Assembly: GCF_003260205.1 (NCBI RefSeq)
Contig: NZ_QERF01000008.1
Span: forward strand, 62,001-126,000
Direction of reading: 5' to 3'
Origin: Winogradskyella tangerina
GTDB taxonomy: Bacteria > Bacteroidota > Bacteroidia > Flavobacteriales > Flavobacteriaceae
DNA length: 64,000 nucleotides
Below are positions 59,065 to 61,085 of the stretch, one piece after another. Under the pieces are notes generated by a model. The model was not told the origin of the DNA. It saw nothing but the letters and a program-made list of their open reading frames with translations, and searched no databases. How positions within the stretch are numbered: position 1 is the stretch's first letter; every line of letters begins with the position of its first letter. A program made the translations under genes and the position numbers.

Positions 59065-59631
59065 ATGAAAAAGATATTAGTTATTGATAATTACGACAGT
59101 TTCACCTACAATTTGGTACACTATCTCGAGGATCTCTATTGCGAGGTAACTGTAAAACGAAACGATAAACTCACAATTGAAGACGTAGAGCCATTTGAAA
59201 AAATTGTACTGTCACCAGGACCTGGAATTCCGGATGAGGCAGGCTTATTAAAAGAAATCATTGCCACTTACGCCCCAACTAAAAGTATCCTAGGAGTTTG
59301 TTTGGGGCAACAAGCGATTGGTGAAGTTTTTGGAGGTTCACTGGTAAATTTAGATAATGTATATCATGGTGTAGCTACTAACGTAACGCTATCTGTTGAG
59401 GATGAAAATCTTTTCAACGGATTAGATAAAACGTTCGAAGTTGGTCGGTACCATTCGTGGGTAGTAAGTAATGACCTCCCTGAAAGTTTAGAAGCCACCT
59501 CCTATGATACTAATGGACAAATAATGTCCTTACGTCATAAAGTGTACGATGTGAAAGGTGTTCAATACCATCCGGAGTCGGTTTTAACGCCCAATGGAAA
59601 AAAAATATTAGAGAACTGGGTGAATAGTTAG
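59065..59631 (+). CDS. trpG: Anthranilate synthase component II (glutamine amidotransferase)
   Basis: Supplies ammonia from glutamine to TrpE. The 188 residues hold the class I amidotransferase triad: nucleophile Cys in ILGVCLGQQAIGE and His/Glu in VQYHPESVLTPNG. The DNYDSFTYNLVHYLEDL start is standard for TrpG. Directly follows trpE. Confidence 0.97.
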   Translation: MKKILVIDNYDSFTYNLVHYLEDLYCEVTVKRNDKLTIEDVEPFEKIVLSPGPGIPDEAGLLKEIIATYAPTKSILGVCLGQQAIGEVFGGSLVNLDNVYHGVATNVTLSVEDENLFNGLDKTFEVGRYHSWVVSNDLPESLEATSYDTNGQIMSLRHKVYDVKGVQYHPESVLTPNGKKILENWVNS

Positions 59632-59644
59632 TTTCTGATTTGAT

Positions 59645-59693
59645 GAGACAAGAGATAGGAGATGAGAGATAAGAGATTAGAGATCAGAGACAA
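59645..59693 (+). repeat. Seven tandem 7-bp repeats (GAGAYNN) before the four-helix-bundle gene
   Basis: Seven consecutive heptads in exact 7-bp register: GAGACAA, GAGATAG, GAGATGA, GAGATAA, GAGATTA, GAGATCA, GAGACAA. Only the last two or three bases vary. A complementary array lies after the gene at 60063-60090. Confidence 0.88.
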
Positions 59694-59713
59694 ATTAGAT
59701 AAAGTAGCATAGA

Positions 59714-60070
59714 GTGAATAATTATAAGGAATTAAAGGTCTGGCAAAGGTCAATGGAATTGGTTGAGAATATTTACAAAATAGGTACCATGTTTCCTTCT
59801 GAAGAAAAGTACGGTTTGCTGAGTCAAATTCAGAGAAGTGCCGTTTCAATTCCATCTAATATTGCTGAAGGTGCAGGACGAAATTCCGACAAAGAATTTA
59901 AAAACTTTTTAAGTATAGCCTATGGTTCTAGTAATGAATTAAACACACAACTTTTGATTTCTCAAAGAGTTGGCTACTTAAAAAAAGAGGATACAATCAT
60001 AATTTTTAATCAGATTGAAGAAGTTCAGAAGATGTTATTTTCATTAATTAACAAATTCTCAAATCTATAA
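59714..60070 (+). CDS. Four-helix-bundle protein (23S rRNA intervening-sequence type) inside trp operon
   Basis: A 118-residue protein of the S23/IVS four-helix-bundle family: YKELKVWQRSMELVENIYKI, FPSEEKYGLLSQIQRSAVSIPSNIAEGAGRNSDKEFKNFLSIAYGSSNEL, then two more helices. Homologues are encoded within 23S rRNA intervening sequences and as stand-alone genes; a relative is the accessory protein of diversity-generating retroelements. The start is GTG. It has no known role in tryptophan synthesis, interrupts trpG-trpD, and is flanked by complementary heptad arrays, so it looks like an inserted element in the same orientation as the operon. Confidence 0.9.
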   Translation: MNNYKELKVWQRSMELVENIYKIGTMFPSEEKYGLLSQIQRSAVSIPSNIAEGAGRNSDKEFKNFLSIAYGSSNELNTQLLISQRVGYLKKEDTIIIFNQIEEVQKMLFSLINKFSNL

Positions 60071-60090
60071 TCTTAAATCTTTTATCTTTT
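60063..60090 (+). repeat. Four tandem 7-bp repeats (ATCTNNN) after the four-helix-bundle gene
   Basis: Heptads ATCTATA, ATCTTAA, ATCTTTT, ATCTTTT in exact 7-bp register, starting just inside the stop region and ending three bases before trpD. Reverse complements (NNNAGAT) match the upstream array AAGAGAT, so the two arrays can pair as RNA. Confidence 0.8.
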
Positions 60091-60092
60091 AA

Positions 60093-61085
60093 ATGAAAGA
60101 GATATTAAACAGACTTATAAATCAAGAAAGCATTTCTAGCGAAGAGGCTAAAAACGTGTTGGTTAACATTTCAAACGGTGAATACAACCAAAGTCAGATC
60201 GCTTCTTTTTTAACAGTGTATATGATGCGAAGTATTACAATCGATGAACTTCGTGGCTTTAGAGATGCCCTTTTAGAATTGTGTATTCCTGTTGATCTCG
60301 ATGGCTATAATACCATTGATCTTTGCGGAACCGGAGGAGACGGCAAAGACACATTCAATATTTCTACCCTTTCTTCCTTTGTAGCTGCAGGCGCAGGCAT
60401 AAAAGTCACCAAACACGGTAATTACGGCGTATCTTCAGCTTGTGGATCTTCAAATGTAATGGAAGAATTAGGGATAAAATTTTCAAATGATATAGACTTC
60501 CTAAAACGAAGTATTGATGAAGCTGGGATTTGTGTTCTACACGCTCCTTTATTTCATCCTGCGATGAAAAATGTTGCACCGATCAGACGCGAATTAGGTG
60601 TTAAAACTTTTTTCAATATGTTGGGACCCATGGTAAATCCTGCCTTCCCAAAGAATCAAATGGTTGGTGTTTTCAATCTTGAATTACTTCGACTTTACGG
60701 TTATCTATATCAGGAAACTGATAAAAACTATGCTGTGGTTCATGCACTCGATGGTTATGATGAAATTTCACTAACAGGAAAAACTAAAGTCATTTCAAAT
60801 ACTTCTGAAGTTTTATTCTCGCCTAAGGATCTCGGTGTAGATCAGATAGAACAATCGGAAATATTTGGTGGTAACACGGTAAAGCAAGCTGCAAGGCTAT
60901 TTAACAAAATTATTAATGGTAAAGGCACAAAAGCCCAAAACAATGTTGTTTGCGCCAATGCTGGCTTGGCCATCGCCACTGTTAATCAAATATCGCACAA
61001 GGAAGGTTTTGAATTAGCTAAAGCCTCTTTATTAGGAGGAAAAGCAAAACAGAGTTTGAATCAATTAATAGCCTTAAGTCAATGA
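60093..61085 (+). CDS. trpD: Anthranilate phosphoribosyltransferase
   Basis: Joins anthranilate to PRPP. The 330 residues have CGTGGDGKDTFNIST (PRPP loop), KHGNYGVSSACGSSNVMEELG, HPAMKNVAPIRRELGVKTFFNMLGPMVNPA and VHALDGYDEISLTG. Complete. The ATG lies three bases after the heptad array. The stop overlaps trpC by four bases. Confidence 0.97.
   Translation: MKEILNRLINQESISSEEAKNVLVNISNGEYNQSQIASFLTVYMMRSITIDELRGFRDALLELCIPVDLDGYNTIDLCGTGGDGKDTFNISTLSSFVAAGAGIKVTKHGNYGVSSACGSSNVMEELGIKFSNDIDFLKRSIDEAGICVLHAPLFHPAMKNVAPIRRELGVKTFFNMLGPMVNPAFPKNQMVGVFNLELLRLYGYLYQETDKNYAVVHALDGYDEISLTGKTKVISNTSEVLFSPKDLGVDQIEQSEIFGGNTVKQAARLFNKIINGKGTKAQNNVVCANAGLAIATVNQISHKEGFELAKASLLGGKAKQSLNQLIALSQ

Follow-up and report, generated by a model that had tools for sequence, protein, structure and literature searches.

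What kind of insert separates trpG from trpD in Winogradskyella tangerina, and is the symmetry of the repeats that bracket it kept as DNA or as RNA? In the window, by which we mean the whole stretch of 64,000 nucleotides that was analysed (contig NZ_QERF01000008.1), the junction is filled by a gene of the IVP (S23) family standing between two arrays of 7-bp units. The features of the locus are listed below in window coordinates.

59065..59631, + strand: trpG, the upstream neighbour, a 188-aa ORF (name from reading the sequence)
59632..60092, + strand: the entire insert, from the trpG stop to the trpD start (of the 30 junctions read, 8 have 2 nt in its place)
59645..59693, + strand: upstream array, seven GAGAYNN heptads with G over C (period-7 statistics and genome pattern search)
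59714..60070, + strand: gene of the IVP/S23 four-helix-bundle family, 118 aa, starting with GTG (PF05635, 141 bits; TIGR02436, 131.1 bits)
60063..60090, + strand: downstream array, four ATCTNNN heptads, the reverse-complement type of the upstream array (register check)
60093..61085, + strand: trpD, the downstream neighbour, a 330-aa ORF (relatives with 76-93% identity in 38 of the 41 genomes searched, its own included)

The insert and its arrays

The protein matches the PF05635 profile (23S_rRNA_IVP, S23) with 141 bits, against a curated cut-off of 33.8, and TIGR02436 with 131.1 bits, against a cut-off of 24; a previous reading of the letters without database searches (the sequence-only reading) had named the same family, the four-helix bundle of intervening sequences (IVSs). 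Its other match in Pfam is to bAvd, below the cut-off. Within 59632..60092 the IVP gene is the only sense ORF of at least 60 aa, and the insert encodes no transposase, polymerase, or nuclease. The start codon is GTG here and ATG in L012 and L014, the two relatives with the gene at the trp junction. The first downstream heptad overlaps the final 8 nt of the IVP ORF, which ends at 60070. The start of trpD itself (60093-60106, ATGAAAGAGATATT) holds the array unit GAGATNN, where relatives have, for example, ATGAAAGAAATT; the unit may have been seeded by the neighbouring trpD, or may be invading it.

The upstream heptads (GAGAC/T) start at 59645, 59652, 59659, 59666, 59673, 59680, and 59687, and the downstream heptads (ATCT) at 60063, 60070, 60077, and 60084. 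Periodicity exceeds chance on both sides of the gene: lag-7 identity is 35/49 in the upstream array, where the top value among 5000 dinucleotide shuffles was 31, and 19/29 in the downstream array, a value equalled by 0 of 5000 shuffles. Starts and lag-7 statistics both agree with the exact 7-bp register that had been described for the seven GAGAYNN and four ATCTNNN heptads. A pattern made of the tripled unit (GAGAYNNGAGAYNNGAGAY) gave five overlapping matches in the 3.5-Mb genome, all at the trp locus, and its backward-read control gave none. In a stringent period-7 scan of 464 kb of the same genome (the 64-kb window plus twenty 20-kb stretches), the trp array was the sole pass; at each of the periods 4-6 and 8-12, 0-2 arrays passed.

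The complementarity of the two trp arms is moderate by Watson-Crick pairing and clear as RNA. The Watson-Crick local score is 11.5, with 178 of 3000 shuffles as good; as an RNA duplex, the arms reach -31.3 kcal/mol versus -21.2 +/- 3.0 kcal/mol in shuffles, of which 1 in 500 was as low. The mismatches in the aligned arms include four G.U and no A.C. When the 461-nt intercistronic RNA is folded to minimum energy, 38 upstream positions are predicted to pair with the downstream arm region, in keeping with the proposal that a transcript stem enclosing the whole gene can form; the example offered for it, AGATAAGAGAT with ATCTTTTATCT and one G-U, is correct by inspection.

The trpG-trpD junction in relatives

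Thirty trpG-trpD junctions were read, the window's own included. Eight are empty (stop, 2 nt, and ATG), and two contain the gene (L041, which is the window's own, and L065); the gene also stands at the trp junction of another relative, G026 (L012). In one junction (L043, from G010), about 12 codons of the IVP start run directly into the last downstream heptads, and by its letters this remnant is a decayed copy of the trp element. A heptad array without a gene was found in four junctions (L056 and L061-L063) and other fillings in 15, the trpG end of L048 not being reached. The empty junctions and the remnant speak for the insert-like unit that the sequence-only reading had supposed, and the empty sites are too short and too diverged for any target-site duplication to be read.

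The gene-less arrays of L061, L062, and L063 (genomes G014, G032, and G005, respectively) are long, consist of GTGAGAA units, and lie right after trpG, and that of L056 is built of GAAGTTG. Nine relatives (L047, L048, L054, L056, L057, and L061-L064) have in common a non-IVP insert of ~200-270 nt, situated upstream of trpD in the trpG-trpD junction, with a palindromic, ATTCCGACATAGTCGGAA-like core.

The same anatomy at other loci

The genome of W. tangerina has six members of the IVP family. By eye, four of the others have CAGT-, AGAGTT-, AATTAG-, and AATTAC-type arrays upstream and the reverse complement downstream, and the sixth (L006) is truncated, with no arrays seen and an arm-similarity score of 9.0. 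The family is present in 36 of 41 genus genomes and in 232 of 296 phylum genomes. We compared three sets of loci. The genus set holds 115 loci from the 41 genomes searched, which is not every match; the phylum set, the phylum being read as Bacteroidota, holds 83 loci after 6 of 89 were dropped (three short, three masked with N); and the wide set holds 72 usable loci of 80 that were found with Xcc0516 in many phyla, some of them again Bacteroidota. Each upstream flank was compared with its own reverse-complemented downstream flank, and mispaired loci (which in the genus take in orthologous loci) and far flanks 450-670 nt away served as controls.

In the genus, median arm similarity is 14.0 within a locus, 9.0 between loci, and 8.5 for far flanks. 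The 95th percentile of the far flanks is exceeded by 89/115 genus, 71/83 phylum, and 62/72 wide-set loci, and that of the mispaired loci by 70/115, 58/83, and 56/72, respectively; 9 of the 72 wide-set loci score 10 or less. Autocorrelation peaks at 7, 14, and 21 appear on both sides of the gene in all three sets and are absent from the far flanks. The genus has a lesser peak at 8 and 16 too, and its far flanks show the codon period only. The mean array period is 7 bp, and the unit varies from locus to locus. The anatomy extends across many bacterial groups and one archaeon; by eye it was seen in Xanthomonas, a Clostridiaceae, a Cloacimonadota, and an ANME-1 archaeon. The G-rich arm is the upstream one, with G 1272 and C 476 upstream and C 1176 and G 510 downstream in the aligned arms of the genus, and G 650 and C 219 upstream and C 656 and G 211 downstream in those of the wide set.

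Heptads missing from other family copies would have spoken against an insertion unit; the opposite was found, and arrays flank most of the copies examined. The arrangement of arrays and gene is not peculiar to trp, since other junctions look alike. The GAG repeats were also considered as TRAP-like sites of a trp operon, and this was rejected because the array unit changes from locus to locus and other junctions have this anatomy too.

Most of the 14 viral-contig and plasmid loci that were read (from 8 of 11 viral and 6 of 29 plasmid records) look alike by eye. Two viral contigs (L427 and L428) carry a near-same IVP copy; exact identity stops inside the upstream heptad array, beyond which a common block longer than 8 nt was not found, and the break could be due to recombination at the array or to assembly. 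Locus L023 (G014:C22) has long ACGAATC-type heptads that are apparently direct on both sides, and its inverted score is the lowest of the 115 (5.0). In a Pseudanabaena galeata plasmid (L431, NZ_CP112875.1), the IVP gene lies between cas6 and cas4, and its long arrays of AAAAGCT / AAAAGCC heptads look direct, not mirrored.

DNA symmetry or RNA pairing

The IVP gene is co-directional with both neighbours in 113/115 genus and 71/83 phylum loci, compared with 199/351 ordinary genes (naive ORF calls); the p values of 1.8e-25 (genus) and 1.7e-8 (phylum) apply only if loci are independent, which they are not. Such sense placement in operons fits an RNA-processing element, whose arms would pair in the trp mRNA and are cut by RNase III, so that the IVP cistron is removed or has a separate fate, and whose arrays are kept for that purpose. 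The predicted trp stem, with its 38 paired positions, a duplex energy reached by 1/500 shuffles, and four G.U and no A.C, fits this explanation, as does the excision of the Coxiella rRNA IVS by RNase III that is described in PMC4990558. So does the pairing energy of the genus loci, where the RNA duplex of a locus's own arms is -35.5 kcal/mol versus -24.6 kcal/mol for arms of different loci, and 50/115 fall below the 5th percentile.

Selection on RNA should, however, leave more G.U than A.C in the aligned arms and a sense stem stronger than the antisense stem. G.U is not above A.C in the genus (66 v 90), the phylum (45 v 66), or the wide set (35 v 62); the totals are 146 versus 218, with a pooled p of 2e-4 in the direction opposite to RNA selection, orthologues not being independent. 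Other alignment settings, for genus and phylum, gave the same direction, with G.U below A.C. The mean stem in the genus is -35.5 kcal/mol in sense and -36.4 kcal/mol in antisense, and the two are equally stable in that the sense stem is the stronger one in 52 and the antisense stem in 63 of 115 loci. Both outcomes could in part be masked or mimicked by a mutation bias that is strand-specific, which could blur the G.U comparison. Arms swapped among orthologous loci also pair equally well (923/5000; 93 loci, 15 junctions), and co-evolution of the two arms within a genome was rejected as a candidate, since such a swap costs nothing overall. The symmetry of the flanks is present at the level of DNA. 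The trp stem can form, yet it is not what is visibly maintained; on this point the sequence-only reading, which had the arrays serve RNA pairing, is not supported, and we consider an RNA-processing element an unlikely explanation.

Dispersed arrays in the Xanthomonas family and beyond

In Xanthomonas, the IVP genes are flanked by GGGAATC-type heptads and their complement. Gene and array are associated among 159 genomes of the Xanthomonas family: 40 have the gene and (GGGAATC)n, 29 the gene only, 10 the array only, and 80 neither (p = 3.6e-10, shared ancestry ignored). Likewise, (GGGACTC)n was found in 25/69 genomes with the gene versus 6/90 without it (p = 4e-6, again with shared ancestry ignored). 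Gene flanks were read at 50 loci in 42 of these genomes, among the matches listed. With GGGAATC beside the gene, at least 10 dispersed matches were present in 9/9 genomes versus 14/33 otherwise (p = 0.002), and with GGGACTC beside the gene in 6/8 versus 7/34 (p = 0.006), both over the 42 genomes. GGGACCG is found in cis in 2/42 genomes (G397 and G515, with 16 and 83 genome-wide matches, respectively, the gene's own arrays included); four further genomes of the 159 have it (G365, G385, G468, and G497), the unit being absent at the gene copies read. GGGCTCA stands in cis in G391 alone among the 42, and G391 is the sole genome of the 159 with GGGCTCA dispersed (85 matches). The backward control of GGGACTC spells GGGCTCA, which is the unit of G391 itself; reversed heptads are therefore not always neutral controls.

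Two units were followed outside the family. Of 24 genomes, just one, and the predicted one, had GGGAACA (23 matches on 11 contigs), and the same was true of GGGACAA (two overlapping matches in one place). Genome G362 has 86 GGGACTC matches and no detected gene, and in the 3.5-Mb genome of the window a pattern search found the trp unit not dispersed. Which unit is dispersed in a genome can often, though not always, be told from the unit at its gene. Gene-less arrays occur in varied places (20 pairs, hand-picked for being convergent). In G344, convergent GGGAATC pairs surround 180-270 nt that are open in one frame (L400 and L402), and these arrays look as if they bracketed a piece of a host gene.

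Slippage could also make heptad microsatellites among which IVP genes merely happen to lie. By eye, array length changes quickly, heptads occur at relatives' trp junctions without the gene (L056 and L061-L063), and heptameric repeats are described as over-represented in many bacteria (PMC4692102), all of which suits a neutral by-product. That account is very improbable in our judgement, as the only passing period-7 array in 464 kb of the window's genome is at an IVP gene, units in cis and dispersed units agree by genome beyond chance, and slippage alone would not set a mirror-image array across the gene in most loci.

Inheritance and selection

The 115 genus loci correspond to 33 junctions. 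On a tree of 114 IVP proteins (of the 115 loci, the short L006 was left out), the junction label changes 34 times for 32 labels, where the possible minimum is 31. Inheritance is close to one clade per junction: a copy arrived about once at each genus junction and was afterwards passed on or lost. With 34 changes against a minimum of 31, the gene has stayed at its junctions almost without exception, and active hopping, which the word mobile in the earlier account implied, is not seen within the genus. The median dN/dS within junctions is 0.11 (248 of 320 pairs, with dS 0.1-2), and purifying selection acts on the IVP protein within the genus.

Similarity of the unit and similarity of the IVP protein were compared over 31 merged genus junctions; r is 0.09, and 608 of 5000 permutations gave a value as high. 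The unit thus does not track the protein, which argues against simple sequence recognition by it. A protein-determined unit had been a candidate on the strength of a first Mantel r of 0.227; this value was owed to a single junction that had been divided into two, and the candidate was rejected when merging the junctions and using cross-arm similarity only gave r = 0.09.

The same result weighs on the possibility that the arrays are operator-like DNA sites, which the IVP protein would bind on both sides to regulate the operon or shape the chromosome, neither making nor moving them. Plasmid pSM19035 reportedly has a heptad centromere of a comparable kind. The unit is kept per junction across species (the duplex energy of own arms and its equality with that of swapped orthologous arms both fit this), the core is conserved with free positions (GAGAYNN), and the dispersed cognate arrays could be additional sites. 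The unit, however, does not track the protein; array length and sequence turn over quickly between species (by eye), and the gene-less arrays of the 20 hand-picked pairs lie in varied places. We think operator-like sites improbable, to about the same degree as RNA processing.

A proposed mechanism

The reading that we prefer, with our confidence in it evenly divided, is that of a very widespread element of the IVS type, with a protein that works on heptad arrays of DNA and may do so in trans as well. The trp insert would be one copy of it: two inverted arrays of degenerate heptads with an IVP gene (S23, an Avd-like four-helix bundle) standing between them. It would lie in sense orientation at sites where a break or cut in the transcript harms little, that is, among co-directional genes here and, according to the literature, in the rRNA of other bacteria. 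A multimeric IVP protein may recognise heptad arrays as DNA, or help to build them, and would thereby bracket its own gene; a cDNA intermediate is an alternative route, thinkable given the kinship with Avd. In some lineages the IVP protein may also spread and homogenise cognate arrays elsewhere, as RAYT does REP palindromes. Hairpin formation in the transcript and cleavage by RNase III, the latter plausible for long stems such as those of rRNA, would be a consequence only, a tolerated by-product and not what keeps the arrays. More speculatively, a G-rich strand at the 3' side of each chromosome end facing the insert would result if the same G-rich heptad had extended both ends before they were joined.

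Several observations count against an IVP protein acting on arrays. GGGAATC arrays are missing from 29 of the 69 gene-bearing genomes of the Xanthomonas family, and 10 genomes have the arrays with no gene detected; G362 and the four genomes with GGGACCG but not at the gene copies read are exceptions, the arrays of L023 and L431 look direct, the unit does not track the protein, the trp unit is undispersed in its own genome, and the insert is without a polymerase, nuclease, or transposase.

A wider proposal is offered tentatively, as one that we hold to be possible and rather less probable than the element itself. The IVP/S23 protein may be the working part of an unrecognised heptad-array system of bacteria and archaea, in which, at DNA ends or hairpins, G-rich 7-nt arrays are synthesised or copied under its direction, the G-rich strand first and the C-rich strand second. 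The 23S IVSs, the G4 heptamers of Xanthomonas, and the cyanobacterial STRRs would then arise by a single mechanism, in which, to judge from the Avd kinship, a reverse transcriptase might take part in trans.

One anatomy appears to be common to the ORF-bearing IVSs of 23S rRNA, the heptamers of Xanthomonas and cyanobacteria, and operon genes annotated as four helix bundle protein; this link ties together repeats and inserts that were previously described separately and left unexplained. Should heptad arrays be what IVP proteins act on, a common family would gain the function that it has lacked, IVSs would cease to be a curiosity of rRNA, and removing a single gene would put the origin of dispersed heptads to the test.

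Comparison with known systems

In RAYT-REP systems, a gene is bracketed by inverted repeats, the repeat unit recurs dispersed in the same genome, and inheritance is vertical and in place; RAYT proteins are Y1 (HUH) transposases that spread REP palindromes. The IVP element shares the bracketing inverted repeats and vertical inheritance in place. Dispersed cognate repeats were found for several units of the Xanthomonas family and in two outside genomes, not in the window's genome. The IVP protein differs in being a helical bundle without a nuclease domain, Pfam giving PF05635 and a weak bAvd match in place of a Y1 (HUH) transposase, and its repeats are heptad arrays, not palindromes. Nor does the insert encode the transposase of a DNA transposon or insertion sequence.

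A relation between IVP and Avd, the accessory protein of diversity-generating retroelements (DGRs), is stated in PMC10053308. The matches of the trp protein to Avd profiles are weak (bAvd, 22.2 bits with a cut-off of 40; NF033474, 21.2 bits with a cut-off of 80; phrog_3206, 23.1 bits), the first two lying below their curated cut-offs.

The GGGAATC / GGGGATT heptamers of Xanthomonas and Nostoc are described as tandem, intergenic G-quadruplex repeats, with 70 convergent inverted pairs in Xcc and 75 in Xac (PMC4692102); the main text of that paper does not mention S23, four helix, or XCC0516. Like the IVP flanks, they are tandem 7-bp arrays, and GGGAATC itself brackets the IVP gene in Xanthomonas. 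The trp unit differs from the heptamers of that description in having no G-run and in not being dispersed in its own genome. Cyanobacterial STRR sequences are 7-bp, hairpin-forming repeats of unknown function in the account of PMC2670836; they share the 7-bp unit with the IVP flanks, and IVP genes of cyanobacterial plasmids have heptads (six records, by eye). Tandem 7-bp units, as in STRRs and G4 repeats, are thus present at trp, whereas many dispersed copies are found for the units of Xanthomonas-family genomes and not for the trp unit. Among the openly licensed papers searched, we recognised none that links IVP genes to heptad arrays outside rRNA.

The closest likeness, already drawn in the sequence-only reading, is to the IVSs of 23S rRNA. 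Five 23S motifs are absent from the 399 fetched loci, and with no rRNA-resident copy found among these the comparison rests on the published account of Coxiella burnetii. According to this account (PMC4990558), the 23S rRNA IVS has GACAGAT heptads directly upstream of the S23 start, in numbers varying by strain, and a 28-bp terminal stem, and it is excised from the rRNA by RNase III; the S23 ORF is described as decaying, and Xcc0516 as a homopentamer of four-helix bundles. On the features given there, the trp insert resembles the IVS in its protein family, in the complementary ends around the S23 ORF, in the sense orientation of the ORF in the transcript, and in the heptads directly before its start. 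It differs in lying between two protein genes, trpG and trpD, and not inside an rRNA gene, in having heptads on both sides, and in encoding a protein that purifying selection maintains in the genus, the Coxiella ORF being described as in decay. By its sequence, the trp insert is probably of the same kind as the Coxiella rRNA IVS, though it lacks the rRNA location that defines the latter.
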